NCBI GenBank assembly: GCA_025558095.1
Contig: JAIVFI010000009.1
Location: 744,001-808,000, forward strand
From: Hyaloraphidium curvatum
Taxonomy: Eukaryota > Monoblepharomycota > Hyaloraphidiomycetes > Hyaloraphidiales > Hyaloraphidiaceae
DNA length: 64,000 bases
Direction of reading: 5' to 3'
Part shown: one piece after another, positions 9,196 through 15,708 of the stretch
Numbering within the stretch: position 1 is the first letter of the stretch
Layout of the letters: each line of letters begins with the position of its first letter
Made by a program: the position numbers and the translations under genes
Notes under the pieces: model-generated
What the model was told of the DNA's origin: nothing
The model's database searches: none
The model's input: the letters and a program-made list of their open reading frames with translations, nothing else

Positions 9196-9545
9196 TCACA
9201 TCTGCGTCCGCCAGACCTTCGGCATCTCGGTCGCCATCCAGTTCACCCAGTCGCCGGTGGGCACTTCAACGAGCGTCCGCGGGTTGTACGCCTCCCTCAT
9301 CCTCCCCACGACGTCGGGCTGCTTCACGACGTAGATCCACGCGTCTTTGCGCTCGCTCTGACCGCCGTCCATCTCCACCGGCACGACTATCCGCGTATAA
9401 TGATTGGGGTGGCCCTCGATGTAGTCAAGCATCCTCAAAGCGTCCGGGCCCACGGTCCACAGATCGCCCCAGATCCGGGCCGGTGCACCGGGCGGGACCA
9501 AGGCCTCGCAGAGCAGATATGGGAACCGTCCGCTTTTGAATCCGT
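9196..9545 (-). pseudogene. Gamma-glutamylcyclotransferase-like gene, 3' part separated by the element
   Basis: Reading leftward from the element edge, the frame continues FKSGRFPYLLCEAL, GDLWTVGPDALRMLDYIEGHP and YTRIVVPVEM, ending WRTQM and TGA at 9196. This is the C-terminal two thirds of a GGCT/AIG2-like beta-barrel protein, including the LDYIEGHPNHYTR segment that holds the conserved acidic residue and the typical Y(x)R after it. The missing N-terminus lies at 14217..14366 beyond the 4.67 kb insertion. Joining position 14217 to 9540, which uses one TCCGT copy only, keeps the reading frame. The whole protein would be about 164 residues, normal for the family. As it stands the gene should be inactive. 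Confidence 0.88.
9541..9545. repeat. Target-site duplication, left copy (TCCGT)
   Basis: TCCGT sits directly before the left inverted repeat and again directly after the right one (14217..14221). Five-base direct repeats flanking inverted termini are the signature of staggered cutting during integration. Confidence 0.88.
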
Positions 9546-9664
9546 AGGCAGAGGCAGAGGGGGAAGTTGGACGAGGGGACTGTCCTCCGTCGCTTCGCTC
9601 CGTCGTCGGCCCCTCGTGGCCGGTTAGGCCTGGACCGGAGGTCCTTATGACGTCTCCCTGTGCG
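9546..9664 (+). repeat. Left terminal inverted repeat
   Basis: Aligned with the reverse complement of 14097..14216, it shares AGGCAGAGGCAGAGGGGG at the tip, CTCCGTCGCTTCGCTCCGTCG, GGCCGGTTAGGCCTGGACCG and AGGTCCTTATGACGTCT. Mismatches and a small indel lie between the blocks. The inner border is near CCTGTGCG at 9657-9664. Confidence 0.9.
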
Positions 9665-10329
9665 ACAGCTCCCTTGGCTCTCGTTCCTCTCTCCCGTCTC
9701 CTGTTGCCGGATGGGGGGAGTGGGGGGTCTCCCCCCCCCAAGGCTCCCGACCGTGCGAAGCAAGGAACTGCTGCGCGGAGCGCCGGGGGTTGTAGGGGGT
9801 TCCCCCCTACGCCGGGGTTCTCCCCTACCTTGAGTCGCTTTACTTTGCTTAGCGTATGCTTTAGCATTTGCTAAGGTCTTTTCAAACACCTTTCATAGGT
9901 AGAACTTAGGTGTTTACTTTTAACTTTTTCTTACACATTTCATACTTATAGGTGCCTTAGGTGGGTATTTCAAGATTTCATTCGTATATTTTGTTCCTTT
10001 GGTTGTTTCCTCTCTTTTGGGGGGAGCGGCGCTGGATCCCGAGAGTCCCACCTAAGCACCTAAAAGATCTAAATCATTCTCTTACCTAGTCTTCGTGACA
10101 GTTTCTTCAATCCTATGCTTCCGTGGTTGCCCATTGCGCTTCGTTGTTTCCCTCTCACCTACGCGTCTCTTTTCTGAGACCTCTACGCGTCGCGCCCACA
10201 CGCCCTCTCACTCTTTCGGACGCTTTGCTTTCGGACCCTGTTGCCGCATCTCGTTCGGACGCCTCTCTCACTTGGACGTGCTCTCAGAACGCGTCGCTCT
10301 TGCCTTGGACGCGTCCCTTCCTCCCCCCA
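9665..10329. repeat. Left subterminal region: G-run hairpins and TTAGC/TTAGGTG repeats
   Basis: Next to the repeat are G/C-run hairpins, for example around 9717-9750 and TAGGGGGTTCCCCCCTA near 9794. A palindromic cluster follows (GCTTAGCGTATGC, TTTAGCATTTGCTAAGG, 9847-9875). Then come repeated CTTAGGTG/CACCTAAG units near 9906, 9957 and 10050. The right end has a matching TGCTAAG cluster. Such iterons are typical binding sites for a replication initiator or recombinase; that role is inferred. Confidence 0.6.
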
Positions 10330-11014
10330 ATGGATTCGGACACGCAAATGGACACTGTCATGCCTACTCTCGTCATTTTTGCACCTGGCGACGGATATAC
10401 TCCGGACGTCATCGAGTATGATTGGCGCCGTCTTCAGACACATTGGGCCAAAGGTATGGTTGCGCATCCCGCCCCTTGAGTTCGTACTTACGACTTTAGA
10501 TCCCCATACCATTCAAGGCTTTCTGGCTTACTCTGCTGGGCAGGCTCTTCAAGAAATTATCAAGTTCGTGTCAACCCAATCACCGCAGAATCTTCGTCTC
10601 TGCTACAGCGGACACGGTGCAGATAACCAGCGCTATCGCATTGTTGCAACTCCGTTTGGCCTACCTTCTTATCACCGGACCTCTGGGCACCACGGCTGGA
10701 TCTTCCAAGATGACTCCATTCTGACCTTTTCTGACCTCTCGGATGCACTTGCTCGTACAACACGAACTTGTCCCACAAACATTCACCTGTTCGTTAATGC
10801 TTGTTTCGCTGACAGCTGGATCCCTTCCATTCAATCCCACTCTCAGTCGTCGCATTTGATCTCTTTTAAATCTTTTCACACTATTACCAATTCTGGTGAA
10901 TGTCAGTTAACCCAGTCAGGCCAACTTCTCTGGTGGAAAAAGTCCTGGTTTTCGAGAGAAGGCAGTACTCGGATCGCACAGTGGAAATGGAACACATGGA
11001 TCGACCATATATGA
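10330..11014 (+). CDS. Caspase-fold (peptidase C14/metacaspase-like) protein of the element
   Basis: Exons 10330..10453 and 10500..11014, split by a 46 bp GTATGG/TTTAG intron, give 212 residues. The fold is suggested by a strand before YSGHG (His80) and a second strand running into HLFVNACFADSW (Cys143). This is the His/Cys dyad arrangement and spacing of C14 caspase-like peptidases. The start MDSDTQMD is followed by LVIFAPGDGYTPDVIEYD, which fits the first caspase strand and loop. A longer start in the same frame is possible. An ORF in another frame overlaps the 3' end (10987..11241) and may be its true C-terminus if there is a frameshift or unseen intron. Function within the element is unknown: it could act on host or element proteins. 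Confidence 0.68.
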
Positions 11015-11241
11015 AACTACCCGTCGTACTTTACTGTATCGGTGATAGTATTCGATTCGGCAAACAATGGGATTGGTACCGTATTGTTAGTAAGCACCCC
11101 GGTTCCTTTCCCGATGCTTTCAATATTACTTTGCGAAAACCCTACCGGGAGACCTTTGGTATACCTGGTGGTGAACTCCGAACTATAGAATTTGATTCAT
11201 GTAGTTCCCATTTTGATTCTCTCATCAAATCTAGTCTCTGA
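10987..11241 (+). CDS. Small ORF overlapping the caspase-fold gene, possibly its C-terminal extension
   Basis: An 84-residue frame starts MEHMDRPYMKL and includes VLYCIGDSIRFGKQWDWY, SKHPGSFPDAFN and TFGIPGGELR. Its amino-acid composition is protein-like and it begins inside the last 28 bases of the caspase-fold gene. I could not find a splice pair that joins the two without losing plausible coding sequence. A minus-or-plus-one shift near 10950-11010, or an independent small protein, both remain open. Confidence 0.4.
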   Translation: MEHMDRPYMKLPVVLYCIGDSIRFGKQWDWYRIVSKHPGSFPDAFNITLRKPYRETFGIPGGELRTIEFDSCSSHFDSLIKSSL

Positions 11242-11304
11242 AAAGAAGTTCTCGACAATGTCCCAGTACCTGAAGGTTCGTCTCTTCGTAGTCTACAACT
11301 TTAC

Positions 11305-11667
11305 TCAGCGCAGCGTGAACATTTTCTTCAGCTGTTCAGAAGACACTATCGTAAGCTTCACTCTAGGCACTTGTATACTGATTGATTCCCCTATCTCTTT
11401 GAGATCCACTCTCTTGGCTTGTTTCGTTCTTCCGGCATCTCTCTCATATACCACTCCATCAAACCAAAATGTATTTGATCCTTCATAGATGTTGTAATCA
11501 TGGTATGCTGCAAACGCACCCTTCTCGGTAACTATCTTTATACCCTTCGGTCCCGTCATTGTCAATACCAGTCTTAATGTTGCAAATTGATCCGGGCTTA
11601 TTTGGACATTTTCATAGCGACGCTCCGCTACTTGTTCTGTTTTGGTCTTCGATACGTTCAAACCCAT
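11305..11667 (-). CDS. Unknown 120-residue protein of the element, downstream of the D5 helicase
   Basis: From ATG 11667 the frame reads MGLNVSKTKTEQVAERR, VLTMTGPKGIKIVTEKG, YNIYEGSNTFWFDG and ends MFTLR. The frame is also open 14 codons further upstream, beginning at a TTG and overlapping the helicase stop. It looks like a small mixed beta protein and I recognise no family. It lies directly after the helicase on the same strand, with TATAAAAG overlapping the helicase stop codon, so it may have its own promoter. Base composition matches the helicase gene. Confidence 0.6.
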   Translation of the reverse strand: MGLNVSKTKTEQVAERRYENVQISPDQFATLRLVLTMTGPKGIKIVTEKGAFAAYHDYNIYEGSNTFWFDGVVYERDAGRTKQAKRVDLKEIGESISIQVPRVKLTIVSSEQLKKMFTLR

Positions 11668-11693
11668 TTTATCATCAGGGACAACTTCCTTTT

Positions 11694-11701
11694 CTTTTAT
11701 A
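11694..11701 (-). promoter_or_regulatory. TATAAAAG motif before the 120-residue element gene
   Basis: TATAAAAG on the minus strand overlaps the TAA stop of the D5 helicase, 27 bases ahead of the proposed ATG of the next gene. The same octamer precedes the helicase itself. A repeated TATA-like box suggests element-specific transcription signals, by inference only. Confidence 0.4.
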
Positions 11702-13562
11702 CGTTGCAATCATTTGTCCACTTCCACCCTTTCCATCCATATTGTTGCGGCGATCCAAACCTCCGACGTTTGTCCGTCAACCTTTCTCCTGCCAATAGCA
11801 TGTCCATCTTGGCGTACGCTTCCTTTTTCGTCGGCGCCGCACGCTTCTCTCCATACATCCGCCTCCATGCCTCCTTGATCTTCTCGTATACCTTGCTACT
11901 TGACACTCCGCTCCCTTCGCTGTCATCCTCCTCCAAACACTCTTCCTTCACCTGTTGGTACACGTTGTTCTCTTCCATATACTGTTGCGCCGCTTCTCTC
12001 ATCTGCTCCGGTACTTTAACCAGTTTTTCTTCCTTGTAGCTCCTGTAACCCTTCAGCATTTCTCCCATCACCACCCATTTCCATCCGTCTACTCTCTCAC
12101 TTAATGTATCATCCTGGTAATACTCGTTCTTTGTCTCATCCACTTCTTCTGTGATGCTCTTGAACTTGGATTTGAATGGCGTCACTCTGATCCTTCGCTT
12201 CATTGCTTCGTCCACTCCATTGAATATCGGCAAATCGTTGCACACCAAAAAGAGCTTGAATGTCGGATCAAACCAACCCTGCTCCCCAAACAATTTCCTG
12301 TAATTCAACCGATCTTCTCCACTTAGCAGCTTGAACTTCTGCTCGTTTATGTTGCCTCCTGGCATGGTTTCTGACATATATACCAGGCGTGCTCCTATCA
12401 TGCTCGTCAGTGTTGGCGTTGCTGCATCCGCTTTTGTCGCTTCACTCAAAAATGATGCTTCAATCTTCACCGCAAACTCTTCCAGCACTTTCTCCAATAT
12501 CTTTATCAAAATCCCTTTCCCATTTGATCCTGATCCATGACCAAATACGAATATTTGATCTTTTGTATACCCTGCTAGCATGCTCCCCATATACTTTATC
12601 ATCCATTCCCTGGTTTCTTCATCCGGAAATACCTTCCCCATGTAGTCCCTGAACTCTTTCAAAGTCTCTGGGTCCTCATACATCTTGATCTCATTGTACT
12701 CGTACTTGAGCTGTTTTGTCATCATGTCCTCTGGTCTTCCAGGTCTGAATTTGTCCTCTGCTAAATCATAGATTCCATTCAAAAATGGTATCACCGTCTT
12801 GTTCTGATTGAGTTTTGCCGCAAAGTCCTTCCGTTCACAGCATGTCTTGAATTCGTCCGCCACCGCTTTCTTCATGTTCGCTTGCTCCAGACTCATTATC
12901 ACTTTCCTTATCAACTTCAACTTGAATTCTTGCTTCTCTTGCCTGTAGATTCGCTCTGCTTCCAAAAACAATCCTTTGTAGTTTGATGACTTGATTAGCT
13001 TGTACACTCCTCGTTCATCCGTCTTCTCCCAAATGTGACTTGTGAATATGTACCAAGCTCCATCATACACCACCCTTCCTTTGTTCACTGCATGCAGCAG
13101 CTCCGCTAGTTTCTCTTGTGTTCCACTCAGAGCATTCAATATAATCCCGTTTAGGTTTTCATCTTCCACTATCTTGACGTCATCCTGCGAAAAATCGTGG
13201 ATTACTGCTGTCTCCCTTTTTGATGTCGGTGCTATCGTTTGAAATATTATGTTGATGCTGTTGTCGTTGTTTATTGCTACCGGCCAGTGCTTCCATCCCT
13301 CCCTTGGCCTTATGTGATTGTTCTCGCATACGTACTTCCAGCCTTGTTTCGTTAGCGTTATTGTGTTCCATTTGCTCACTTTATCTTCAAATTCGCATGC
13401 TTCACATTCTCCAGGGTACATCGCTTCCAACTTGTCACCCCTTTGTTTGAATTTCGTTAAATCTTCGTTGAATCCTGGCACCTTGGCCAGTTCTCTTTTC
13501 AACGTTTGCACCAAGTCCATGCTACTCATACTGTTTATTTTTTTTTCTTGAGTCCTGACCAT
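11697..13562 (-). CDS. D5-type superfamily 3 primase-helicase of the element
   Basis: An intronless 621-residue frame. Key motifs: NGIYDL near 262-267, typical of the D5 N-terminal domain; Walker A GHGSGSNGKG at 341-350; Walker B-like LVYMSE near 393-398; motif C LFLVCND near 437-443 with its sensor Asn; and a KRRIRV arginine-finger region near 455-460. This is the ring helicase of D5/P4 type that works in replication initiation of nucleocytoplasmic large DNA viruses, virophage-like elements and some phages. An N-terminal CxxC pair (ECEACE, residues 52-57) could be a zinc-ligand remnant of a primase module, but no archaeo-eukaryotic primase core is evident. It is the best marker of the element's viral or plasmid ancestry. 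Confidence 0.9.
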   Translation of the reverse strand: MVRTQEKKINSMSSMDLVQTLKRELAKVPGFNEDLTKFKQRGDKLEAMYPGECEACEFEDKVSKWNTITLTKQGWKYVCENNHIRPREGWKHWPVAINNDNSINIIFQTIAPTSKRETAVIHDFSQDDVKIVEDENLNGIILNALSGTQEKLAELLHAVNKGRVVYDGAWYIFTSHIWEKTDERGVYKLIKSSNYKGLFLEAERIYRQEKQEFKLKLIRKVIMSLEQANMKKAVADEFKTCCERKDFAAKLNQNKTVIPFLNGIYDLAEDKFRPGRPEDMMTKQLKYEYNEIKMYEDPETLKEFRDYMGKVFPDEETREWMIKYMGSMLAGYTKDQIFVFGHGSGSNGKGILIKILEKVLEEFAVKIEASFLSEATKADAATPTLTSMIGARLVYMSETMPGGNINEQKFKLLSGEDRLNYRKLFGEQGWFDPTFKLFLVCNDLPIFNGVDEAMKRRIRVTPFKSKFKSITEEVDETKNEYYQDDTLSERVDGWKWVVMGEMLKGYRSYKEEKLVKVPEQMREAAQQYMEENNVYQQVKEECLEEDDSEGSGVSSSKVYEKIKEAWRRMYGEKRAAPTKKEAYAKMDMLLAGERLTDKRRRFGSPQQYGWKGWKWTNDCNV

Positions 13563-13564
13563 CT

Positions 13565-13572
13565 CTTTTATA
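13565..13572 (-). promoter_or_regulatory. TATAAAAG motif at the D5 helicase start
   Basis: TATAAAAG lies two bases upstream of the first ATG of the helicase. Later in-frame Mets (codons 12 and 15) would put it about 35-45 bases upstream of translation, a more usual TATA spacing, so the true start may be one of those. A CATAAAAG variant near 13592 faces the divergent HNH-like gene. Confidence 0.4.
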
Positions 13573-13634
13573 CCGTCAAGTCATTTACTCCCATAAAAGA
13601 AGCCCACAGCTGTTTTTCTCTTTCCTACACTTCA

Positions 13635-13847
13635 ATGGGACGCCGTAACTTCAAATACCTCCACGAACCCTGTGCCAGGTGTGGTGGCCTTAGTCAAACT
13701 GGCCATCACATTGTCCCTCCCCGCATTCGCAAATCTATCCCTCTTTCCATTCAAGGCCGATCTGAATTGATTATGCTTTGTTTTCCATGCAAAAGTACAG
13801 TTAATCAGGAATACTGTCAAAATTATATAATAAAAAGGAAGGACTAA
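13635..13847 (+). CDS. HNH-like zinc-binding nuclease candidate of the element
   Basis: A 70-residue protein begins MGRRNFKYLHEPCARCG, then GHHIVPPRIRKS, LIMLCFPCKSTVNQ, and ends IIKRKD. The CxxC, HHIVP and second CxxC in this order are the metal knuckle and beta-hairpin of small HNH (McrA-like) endonucleases. The usual final His after the second CxxC is replaced by Lys, so activity is uncertain. It is divergent from the helicase, with about 72 bases between start codons. With no other nuclease or transposase seen, it is a candidate for DNA cleavage in the element's life cycle (inference). Confidence 0.62.
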   Translation: MGRRNFKYLHEPCARCGGLSQTGHHIVPPRIRKSIPLSIQGRSELIMLCFPCKSTVNQEYCQNYIIKRKD

Positions 13848-14096
13848 AGAAGAGAGTATAAAACCAATACATGCCTTAAAATGTTCTGACATTGCAGACA
13901 TTACAGACAAAGGCTAATGCTAAGCGAGTGTTTAAGCATATGCTTAATGTGCTAAGGAAGAAGAGACTAGGAACCGGGAAGCATGAGGATGCTAAGGAGA
14001 CTGTGGACTGATAGGAACTAGACTGATAGGAACTAACTATGGCGTCAGGGGGGTTTCAACCCCCCAAGCCCCCCCAGACACGAGAAGGGAAGACTC
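13848..14096. repeat. Right subterminal region: TGCTAAG repeats and G/C hairpin
   Basis: After the HNH-like gene come TATAAAAC (13857), then GGCTAATGCTAAGCG, the palindrome TTAAGCATATGCTTAA, GTGCTAAGG and ATGCTAAGG between 13911 and 14000. A near-perfect hairpin GGGGGGTTTCAACCCCCC follows near 14049-14066. The cluster mirrors the left subterminal region in unit and in distance from the terminal repeat. Confidence 0.6.
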
Positions 14097-14216
14097 CGCA
14101 CAGGAAGACGTCATAAGGACCTACGGTCCAGGCCTAACCGGCCCAGAGGGGCCGCCGACGGAGCGAAGCGACGGAGAGCGAGACCCCTCTCGTAGTCTCC
14201 CCCTCTGCCTCTGCCT
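14097..14216 (-). repeat. Right terminal inverted repeat
   Basis: It is the inverted counterpart of 9546..9664, ending CCCCCTCTGCCTCTGCCT at 14216. The outermost 18 bases are identical to the left tip. Confidence 0.9.
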
Positions 14217-14221
14217 TCCGT
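14217..14221. repeat. Target-site duplication, right copy (TCCGT)
   Basis: It repeats the five bases at 9541..9545. On the minus strand it encodes the end of the codons TAC GGA, and the matching bases on the far side of the element complete the same codons. Confidence 0.88.
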
Positions 14222-14366
14222 AGAGGTAGAAGGGGTCCGTAGTTCGCGCGGTTCCGACGAAAGTCGACGACGCGTCCTCTTCCAGGACATAGGATCGCGG
14301 CTGCCCCCGGCGGAGCGTGCCGTATGTGAAAACAAGAAACTTTTGGCCTGCCGAACTTGGCAGCAT
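14217..14366 (-). pseudogene. Gamma-glutamylcyclotransferase-like gene, 5' part separated by the element
   Basis: From ATG 14366 the frame reads MLPSSAGQKFLVFTYGTLRRG, then DASSTFVGTARTTDPFYLYG, and meets the element. F(V/T)YGTLRRG is the signature N-terminal strand and loop of the GGCT/AIG2-like family, which binds the gamma-glutamyl group. The frame continues at 9540 beyond the insertion. Its start faces that of the Rieske-like oxygenase at 14503, only 136 bp away, so the promoter is probably shared. The native function would be gamma-glutamyl amine or glutathione-related cyclotransfer. Confidence 0.88.
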
Positions 14367-14502
14367 TCCTTTCCGGGCTCGGCACGCGCGTCGACGAAAG
14401 TGGGCGACAAAAGCCGATCGGCGCGCGATCGCACCCCATCGCGCGCTGCACTCCGCCCCGTCCCCCCCGCACAAACAGCGCCCGACGGCCGCTCTCCTCC
14501 AA

Positions 14503-15708
14503 ATGGCCGCCGCCGTCGAGTCTCCGGCACCCTCCGCGGCCGCCGCGGGGCCGAGCGGCGAGACCTTCGCCACGACGCGCAACCTCGGCGCCCGCTACTA
14601 CCACGACCCGGCCATCTTCGCCCGCGAGCAGCGCACCATCTTCTCGAAGACCTGGCTGTTCCTGACCAATGTTTCCCGCGTCGCTGCTGCTGCGGAAGGG
14701 TCGGGAGAGGCCGAGACGCCCGAGGGGGACGGCGCCCTGCGGGAGGGCCATGCGCACTGGCCCGGCGTCGGGCGCGTGAAGGTCCTCCTCTGCAAGATCG
14801 CCGGCTTCGAGTTTGCCCTCCGCCCGGGAGCCACGTCCACCACCGTCGACGGGCTTCTCCTCTCCTCCCCCGTCCCCGAACACTCCGCCTCTCTTCCCCG
14901 CGCGATCCGAGCGCACGCCACCCAACCGGGCGGCTGGGTTTTCGTCAACCTGGCCCCTGAGGAGGAAAAAGTGGTCCCGTGCACCGAGTTTCTCGCGGGC
15001 CTGGAGGGCGGGAGGCTGAAGGAGATCGATTGGGAGGAGTACTCGTTCGACGGGGAGTTCTCTATCGCGGGCTCCTTCAACTGGAAGGCCTACGTGGACA
15101 ACTTCCAAGAATGTACGTCGTTGGTTCCTGCTCCATGTTGCTCCTACCTTACACGCGCGGCGTCTCCAGGCTACCACTGCCCCACGGGCCACGCCGTCAC
15201 GTTCGCCTCATACGCTCTGCAGACGTACAAGATCATCAACACGGGCAACTACTCGCAGCACTTTTGCGAGCGCAAGGCGGACCTCGGCAAGCGGCGGCCG
15301 AGCAAGGGAGACGGGCTGGGTGGCGGGCAGGGGCTCTGGCTGTTCTTCTACCCCAACGCGTCGATGAGCTGCTGTGGGTCGACCTTCTACGCGGCTCATG
15401 CGGATAACAAGCTGACAACCATCGTTCGGACAGACGCCCCCGCCATCTCGATGTCGATAATCAACCCCGTCTCCCCCACCCGCACCGTCCTCTACTACCA
15501 GGTCTTCATGCGCCGCGGCACGCCCCCGGCGACGCGCGACGCCTTCTACGCCAGCCTGCGCGAGGTGCTCGCCGAGGACTGCGAGCTCACGGGCGGCGCG
15601 CAGAGGAACTACGAGGGCGGGGTGTGGGCCGCGGGGCCGCTGCACCCGGGGAGGGAGAACGGGGTGCTGTGGTTCCAGAATAAGGTCAGGGAGGCGCTGA
15701 AGGGTTAA
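14503..15708 (+). CDS. Rieske-type ring-hydroxylating/choline-monooxygenase-like protein lacking the Rieske cluster motif
   Basis: Exons 14503..15112 and 15170..15708 encode 382 residues. The N-terminus follows the family (ARYYHDPAIFAREQRTIFSKTWLF). After VKVLLCKIAGFEFALRPG, where CxH...CxxH cluster ligands should come, the sequence goes straight to a linker and then WVFVNLAPE. The C-terminal catalytic domain is intact: NWKAYVDNFQECYHCPTGHA, whose Asp/Glu and two His are the mononuclear iron site of choline/carnitine monooxygenase-like enzymes. That motif is created by the splice. Length is slightly below the usual 400-450. Without a [2Fe-2S] cluster it cannot take electrons in the normal way, so the activity is unclear. 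Confidence 0.85.
   Translation: MAAAVESPAPSAAAAGPSGETFATTRNLGARYYHDPAIFAREQRTIFSKTWLFLTNVSRVAAAAEGSGEAETPEGDGALREGHAHWPGVGRVKVLLCKIAGFEFALRPGATSTTVDGLLLSSPVPEHSASLPRAIRAHATQPGGWVFVNLAPEEEKVVPCTEFLAGLEGGRLKEIDWEEYSFDGEFSIAGSFNWKAYVDNFQECTSLVPAPCCSYLTRAASPGYHCPTGHAVTFASYALQTYKIINTGNYSQHFCERKADLGKRRPSKGDGLGGGQGLWLFFYPNASMSCCGSTFYAAHADNKLTTIVRTDAPAISMSIINPVSPTRTVLYYQVFMRRGTPPATRDAFYASLREVLAEDCELTGGAQRNYEGGVWAAGPLHPGRENGVLWFQNKVREALKG

Follow-up and report, generated by a model that had tools for sequence, protein, structure and literature searches.

A family of inverted-repeat elements with D5/P4-type helicases and 5-bp target duplications in the fungus Hyaloraphidium curvatum

The window analysed here is a 64,000-nt stretch of the genome of Hyaloraphidium curvatum, a chytrid-like fungus, and its positions 9546–14216 (contig coordinates 753546–758216) are occupied by an inserted element of 4.7 kb, which we call C9. 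The left terminal inverted repeat (TIR; 9546–9664, + strand) begins with AGGCAGAGGCAGAGGGGG and aligns with the right one (14097–14216, − strand) over 119 bases: 107 of the 119 aligned positions are identical, with 11 mismatches and 3 gap positions. The alignment scores 87; none of 500 shuffles exceeded 17, and none of 300 random host pairs of the same spacing exceeded 19. This confirms the TIRs of about 120 bp claimed in an earlier note on this DNA. As the two ends differ by ~10–12%, they have not been homogenised recently. The same note had described a 5-bp target duplication and an AT-richer interior, and both are borne out: TCCGT is repeated exactly on the two sides (9541–9545 and 14217–14221), 5 bp being the longest exact match between the flanks, and GC content is 0.42–0.51 in the 1-kb bins from 10001 to 14000 versus 0.58–0.73 in the remaining bins of the window.

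C9 splits a host GGACT gene that lies on the − strand. Its 3’ part (9196–9545) matches positions 32–119 of the 120-position PF06094 profile (E = 2e-13; the match also includes ~5 residues read from the TIR), and its 5’ part (14222–14582) matches positions 1–32 (E = 0.017, below the cut-off). When the flanks are joined a single frame is kept on the same strand. The proof of interruption is the GGACT profile divided across the flanks; that a long frame stays open when they are joined was rejected as proof, since 195 of 300 random host stretches in this GC-rich genome do equally well, holding an open frame of at least 240 aa.

The interior carries, as the note had put it, five or so small genes: a helicase, a caspase-motif protein, an HNH-like ORF and two further ORFs of 76 and 120 aa. 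The caspase-motif gene has two exons (10330–10453 and 10500–11014, + strand) separated by a 46-nt GT-AG intron (10454–10499, +), and the spliced model gives a 212-aa product identical to the deposited protein P0057. Exon 2 contributes the SGHG (H80) and NACF (C143) motifs, and the putative caspase assignment is by these motifs only: the protein had no Pfam hit at E ≤ 10, its PDB matches were at chance level only, and its AF2 model reached a pLDDT of 31 (30.8). The caspase fold proposed earlier is not supported beyond these two motifs. Nor is the pairing of helicase and caspase a trait of the family to which C9 belongs, since in the genome the caspase-like protein matches its own two exons only; likewise, a database search with exon 2 returned its own record alone among 15 candidates. 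The 76-aa ORF (11011–11241, +), whose start overlaps the caspase-like stop codon, and the 120-aa ORF (11305–11667, −) had no Pfam hit at E ≤ 10.

The HNH-like ORF (13635–13847, +) encodes 70 aa and is truncated at its C-terminus relative to homologues in two further elements introduced below, C23 (93 aa) and C2 (97 aa). All three score below the Pfam cut-off (C9, E = 0.08 and 13.6 bits vs 21.4; C23, 14.1 vs 21.4 bits; C2, 13 vs 21), a protein database search gave no candidate, and an IMG/VR scan found no relative. Cys and His residues are invariant across the three homologues; as a profile match, the HNH assignment is weak. The divergent promoter region and the 5’ part of this gene (13555–13818, +; 264 bp) are 97% identical to C23, and a stretch at 13821–13912 (+) is 82% identical to a third element, C39.

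The largest gene (11697–13562, −) encodes a 621-aa D5/P4-type SF3 helicase with Walker A at residue 341. It matches D5_N (E = 4e-19; 69.8 bits vs a cut-off of 22.4) and TIGR01613, the P4-family primase C-terminal model (150.5 bits vs 108.7), in agreement with the original assignment. Its paralogues in C39 and C23 are 52% and 42% identical. In a tree of 44 sequences (45 entered trimming and P0015 was dropped; 40 of 55 database hits were among those entered) the C9 and C39 helicases are sisters (support 100/99) inside a clade with PrimPol-SF3 proteins, and the closest database relatives of the three helicases are mostly PrimPol-SF3 proteins of ~950 aa. The nearest kin of the C9 protein, P0002–P0013 (up to 45% identity), come from metagenomes and from the chytrid Quaeritorhiza haematococci; 11 of these 12 carry the PF09250 PrimPol domain (the exception is P0008, 430 aa), whereas the C9 helicase is without it. 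The PF09250 profile had no match at C9, C39 or C23. Queries made of the N-terminal 260 aa of 10 relatives found nothing in C9 and, in C23, matched with no more than their final portion; three weak hits fell in locus L018 (E = 0.009–0.26), two of them outside C39.

More distant helicases were found elsewhere. IMG/VR pattern scans gave no close relative of the C9 helicase and distant ones on 16 contigs (22–30%); GTDB gave four matches at 27–30%. Three of the 16 contigs were sampled; they look phage-like, with terminase-like genes in L046 and L053 and terminase and portal genes in L070, and were set aside. The replication module of C9, belonging to a wider database family of PrimPol-SF3 proteins, is thus not new in kind. 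The description of C9 as a TIR-bounded element with a D5/P4 helicase and no recognised capsid holds.

C9 belongs to a family. Searching the assembly that contains it (31.9 Mb), we found two other large two-ended elements, C39 (7.9 kb; 114562–122489) and C23 (17.9 kb; 59024–76936), whose TIRs of ~737 and ~697 bp are long and near-identical within each element, and two mini-elements of 378 and 334 bp that are nearly all terminus and both have target duplications (5 bp in the 378-bp one, C27). Further relatives are the C2 element, for which one end was found, three one-ended fragments and three more terminus matches, at C28:604864, C39:7110 and C44:5638. A terminus pattern built from the known ends gave 9 matches (6 known, 3 new) and its reversed control 0. 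Over 155 bases the left end of C9 shares 98% identity with the end of the C27 mini-element, and members of the C9 end family at four other loci (C27a, C38, C19 and C33) all start at element base 1. Target duplications are exactly 5 bp in all five two-ended elements, an outcome at other loci that the earlier note had named as support, and their sequences differ among the three large loci. One flank of C39 matches Sulfotransfer_2 below the cut-off and the other has no hit, which is no more than suggestive of a second interrupted host gene. Among open-licence articles we found no report of elements of this kind in Hyaloraphidium.

All three large elements encode D5/P4-type SF3 helicases, the caspase-like and HNH-like genes vary between copies, and C23 has Pfam matches to DUF2177, TspO, N6_N4 methylase and SET. 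All four of the latter, like D5 helicases, occur in giant viruses, and the elements may thus descend from a larger virus. The same genes could be taken for scattered fragments of one integrated giant virus rather than a mobile element. We reject this reading as highly improbable: each of the three large loci is bounded by separate TIRs and by an exact 5-bp duplication of different sequence, and one of these insertions cleanly interrupts a host gene.

How the elements move is less apparent from their genes. Among hand-picked ORFs (26 from C23, 7 from C39 and those of C9) no capsid, packaging ATPase, PolB, integrase or transposase was recognised, which for C9 agrees with the note’s statement that no capsid, polymerase or transposase is seen. 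Profiles for capsid (PF04451) and PolB (PF03175) had no match in the genome, and likewise none in 14 control genomes. The genome holds at least 51 rve matches. Of those counted, 31 lie in reading frames of >1,000 aa, presumably LTR retrotransposons, and none falls inside C9, C39 or C23. Among the scanned ORFs of these three elements no transposase family scored above its cut-off; one REP_Tyr_transpos hit on L020:5941–6327 (E = 0.17) is at chance level. Neither the genome rve search nor the ORF profile searches linked an integrase to the termini of C9-type elements. The autonomy contemplated for C9 is therefore unsupported: it has no PrimPol domain, no integrase was found, and its HNH-like ORF is truncated.

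A cut-and-paste transposon of an unrecognised DDE superfamily, with the viral genes as cargo and a helicase that plays no role in movement, would account for the mini-elements, which consist of ends only and still show target duplications, so that the interior genes are unnecessary in cis; it would also suit caspase-like and HNH genes that differ from copy to copy. We nevertheless think it unlikely. No transposase was found in the scanned ORFs, though one of unknown type or split by introns may have escaped. Each of C9, C39 and C23 carries a D5/P4 helicase, and this argues for a functional role of the enzyme. The TIRs of C39 and C23, at ~700 bp, are also unusually long for cut-and-paste elements.

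Such ends are familiar from polinton-like viruses (PLVs), for which the available text of PMC12220804 gives TIRs of several hundred bp, target duplications of usually 4–6 bp and sizes of 14–40 kb. Some PLVs encode AEP-S3H (PMC11071308) or primase-S3H (PMC4642659), as far as the accessible parts of these sources show. The H. curvatum elements share with them TIRs of hundreds of bp (C39 and C23), short target duplications and a D5/P4-type SF3 helicase; they could accordingly be deletion derivatives of a full PLV or virophage of this fungus, equipped with capsid genes and an integrase, that is missing from the assembly or too diverged to be recognised. Three helicase relatives sit on contigs of 15,970, 17,668 and 22,934 bp, inside the PLV size range. 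We regard this as a serious possibility that falls short of an even chance. Major capsid protein, minor capsid protein and packaging ATPase are described as universal in PLVs in the portion of PMC4642659 consulted; none of these three, nor PolB or an integrase, could be recognised among the scanned ORFs of C9, C39 and C23, and the IMG/VR scans yielded no close helicase relative. The elements also differ from PLVs in that their helicases lack PrimPol and in measuring 4.7–17.9 kb. Polintons (Mavericks) are likewise self-contained mobile DNA with TIRs and a short target duplication, but they are defined by PolB, an RVE integrase and TIRs, and rve integrases typically yield 6 bp (PMC12220804, same portion), compared with 5 bp and neither protein found in C9, C39 and C23.

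Transpovirons, known from Mimiviridae and pacmanvirus lostcity, resemble these elements in being capsidless, with ~7 kb, TIRs of 380–520 nt, a helicase and few small genes (available text of PMC11788076 and PMC7031253); C39, with 7.9 kb, 737-bp TIRs and a helicase, is similar in size and layout and is known here as chromosomal sequence. A satellite of that type, a linear TIR episome replicated in a giant-virus factory and integrated only by accident, would also fit the giant-virus-like genes of C23. It strikes us as quite improbable. Regular 5-bp duplications point to the action of an integrase and not to accidental integration. We know of no giant virus of Hyaloraphidium. Moreover, transpovirons are giant-virus episomes whose helicases are pPolB-SF1 fusions (PMC11071308, in the part available), unlike the SF3 helicases of these chromosomal elements.

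Altogether, we consider it probable, if well short of certain, that C9 and its relatives form a family of capsidless TIR replicons derived from PrimPol-SF3 elements of polinton-like or giant-virus type, integrated by a retroviral-type integrase that probably acts in trans. The ancestor would have been a linear replicon with a PrimPol-SF3 (AEP-S3H) replication protein of that type. The helicase may act at the TIRs, which would serve a linear extrachromosomal form as its origins, with primase and polymerase supplied by host or helper enzymes, and an RVE-type integrase in trans would make cuts staggered by 5 bp and join the ends, a step suggested by the duplication size and by general end chemistry only. 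With primase and polymerase coming from host or helper and the integrase from elsewhere, the C9 copy is most likely non-autonomous. More tentatively, and in our judgement doubtful, the elements might constitute a distinct class of nuclear replicons in early-diverging fungi, 0.3–18 kb in size, capsidless and bounded by TIRs. Such replicons would have a primase-less D5/P4 helicase at their core, terminal tandem motifs of the TGGGAGGGGGTAG-TGGGAGGGGG type, strict 5-bp duplications and cargo that is freely exchanged, and they would be mobilised by a recombinase of their own with an as yet unrecognised fold, encoded for example in the HNH-like or unassigned ORFs.

Transpovirons are thought to be PLVs minus structural genes (PMC11071308, part available). 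If the derivation we favour is true, the H. curvatum elements would represent another capsidless branch, independent of the transpovirons, residing in fungal chromosomes and based on PrimPol-SF3 proteins; conversion of virus to transposon would have happened with a different replication module as well, in a host available for testing. A large MCP-based survey of such integrations omitted Fungi, according to the accessible part of PMC10120064, so a capsidless fungal family would be missed twice. Finally, strict 5-bp duplications made without a known integrase would pose a direct, testable question about how these elements move.

The element at window 9546-14216 is bounded by terminal inverted repeats (TIRs) of about 119 bp with 107 identities; their alignment scores 87, while none of 500 shuffles exceeded 17 and none of 300 host pairs exceeded 19. 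An exact target duplication (TSD), TCCGT, stands on both sides. The left flank matches positions 32-119 of the Pfam GGACT profile (PF06094, E 2e-13) and the right flank positions 1-32 (E 0.017, below the cut-off); when the flanks are rejoined with a single TSD copy, the two GGACT halves share strand and frame. The frame across the join is 240 aa, a length that alone is no evidence of a split gene, since an equally long frame occurs in 195 of 300 random host stretches. The host gene downstream (window 14317-15708, + strand; PF00848, E 1.6e-9) encodes the alpha subunit of a ring-hydroxylating oxygenase, of the Rieske type.

We searched the whole assembly (31.9 Mb, 55 contigs; the window is G000:C9:744001-808000) for relatives. 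The helicase query found five places, its own locus included. Element C39 (C39:114562-122489, 7,928 bp) and element C23 (C23:59024-76936, 17,913 bp) are two-ended, with TIRs identical at 722/737 and 675/697 positions, respectively; the TIRs of one show patchy kinship to those of the other, at about 80-96% identity within patches. Two mini-elements lie on contig C27: C27a (580792-581169, 378 bp) has C9 left-type sequence at both ends, and C27b (521977-522310, 334 bp) is two-ended, its right end having lost bases. C9-type end fragments, each beginning at element base 1, occur on C38 (~195 bp), C19 (~61 bp) and C33 (~34 bp). In all five two-ended elements the exact match between the flanks extends no further than 5 bp (C9 TCCGT, C39 TAGAC, C23 CTCGG, C27a AGAAG, C27b CTCGT). 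That the C39 insertion also split a host gene is suggestive only: one 293-aa frame spans its joined flanks, the right flank resembles Sulfotransfer_2 positions 9-100 (E 0.005, below the Pfam cut-off), and the left-flank ORF has no Pfam match. For a relative on C2 a single end was found (C2:665986). Its locus (L063:1-1960, C2:665953 onward) comprises the left terminus, an AT-rich interior and a complete HNH homologue (at 667453), and then continues into GC-rich sequence, which we take to be a retrotransposon insertion.

A degenerate terminus built from the known ends, TGGRARRRGGTAGTGGRARRRGG, matched nine genome places with up to one mismatch, and its reversed control none. Six are known ends and three are new (C28:604864, C39:7110, C44:5638); the pattern misses the C27b right end, where bases are lost. 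A tandem terminal motif is present at the element ends. The terminal bases are TG..CA in C39, C23 and C27b and AG..CT in C9 and C27a, and such ends would suit retroviral-type integrases.

The C9 helicase satisfies the D5_N and P4-primase C-terminal models, and by sequence its relatives in the PDB are the entries for poxvirus D5 and the C962R primase. It has 55 database relatives; 11 of the best 12 are proteins of 925-975 aa with the architecture PF09250-PF08706-PF19263, two of them from Quaeritorhiza haematococci. In a 44-row tree the C9 and C39 helicases are sisters (100/99) nested in the PrimPol-SF3 clade, while that of C23 joins metagenomic P0003/P0008 with weak support (89/55). The PrimPol domain is absent from C9, C39 and C23: a genome search with PF09250 matched at C35 and C26 only. 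When the first 260 aa of ten relatives served as queries, only the tail of that stretch matched, in C23, and nothing in C9, except for three weak matches at L018, a C39 locus (E 0.009-0.26), two of which lie outside C39. Loci L022 and L023 cover C26:386931-405346 and C35:122822-123325. On C26 a pair of long ORFs, 1416 aa and 1664 aa in length, carries a D5-type helicase, in one case with PrimPol as well, and forms a separate deep branch of the helicase tree; on C35 PrimPol lies within a 1923-aa ORF.

Among the ORFs scanned, hand-picked from ORF lists (26 distinct from C23, seven from C39, its helicase not among them, and those of C9), none matched a family of capsid proteins, packaging ATPases, PolB, integrases or transposases. 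PF04451 (capsid) and PF03175 (PolB) had no matches genome-wide, and likewise none in the control genomes. Matches to rve occur in at least 51 places in the genome, and none of those listed lies inside the C9, C39 or C23 elements.

A 264-bp segment covering the divergent promoter region and part of the HNH-like ORF, which stops early in the C9 copy, is 97% identical between C9 and C23. An adjoining C9 stretch is 82% like C39, so by these identities the C9 element is a mosaic. Beside the C23 HNH gene, a 180-aa ORF shows weak likeness to the D5_N region (hhalign E 1.5e-4, probability 52; blastp E 0.018). Other C23 cargo matches N6_N4 methylase, SET, DUF2177, TspO and, weakly, ankyrin in Pfam, a set that we regard as resembling that of giant viruses. 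C23 also holds a 1.44-kb inverted duplication (99.3%; L020:8335-9776 and L021:173-1610), within which lie ORFs of 117/158 aa in tandem and a copy of the helicase C-terminus. In C39 a segment of an unassigned ORF is duplicated at 82% (L017:9421-9598 and L018:1449-1626), and the ORF at L018:119-628 is weakly F-box-like (E 0.11). The two-exon model of the C9 caspase-like protein (window 10330-10453/10500-11014) is identical to the deposited protein P0057 of Hyaloraphidium curvatum, the host, a chytrid-like fungus that the NCBI taxonomy places in Monoblepharomycota. Its H80 and C143 sit in what we take to be caspase-like motifs, beyond which Pfam, PDB, database searches and an AF2 model gave no support.

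Between 10001 and 13847 of the window, third codon positions favour pyrimidines on the + strand, whichever strand carries the gene (skew negative for the caspase-like and HNH genes on +, positive for the helicase and ORF4 on -), and the sign flips after 13848. The C39 stretch measured has a single sign throughout; C23 is mixed. The skew of the C9 element suggests strand-asymmetric replication or mutation.

Members of this family have inserted with a 5-bp duplication, and have defined termini and TSD-bearing end-only derivatives; C9 and C23 share sequence at 97%. We propose that the SF3 helicase would replicate a linear form of the element starting from the TIRs, with primase/polymerase coming from the host or a helper, and that an RVE-type integrase acting in trans may integrate it. 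The TSDs of the end-only mini-elements show that integration does not require the interior in cis; they say nothing about where the enzyme comes from.

The component parts are already known. Published accounts give polinton-like viruses (PLVs) capsid genes, TIRs hundreds of bp long and 4-6 bp TSDs (PMC12220804), and some PLVs encode AEP-S3H (PMC11071308) or primase-S3H (PMC4642659). Transpovirons are capsidless but replicate with pPolB-SF1 (PMC11071308), whereas the C9 family helicase is a D5/P4-type SF3. The Bellas survey screened protist genomes by MCP genes and left Fungi out (PMC10120064). The combination and setting seen in the C9 family did not turn up in the open-licence papers searched.
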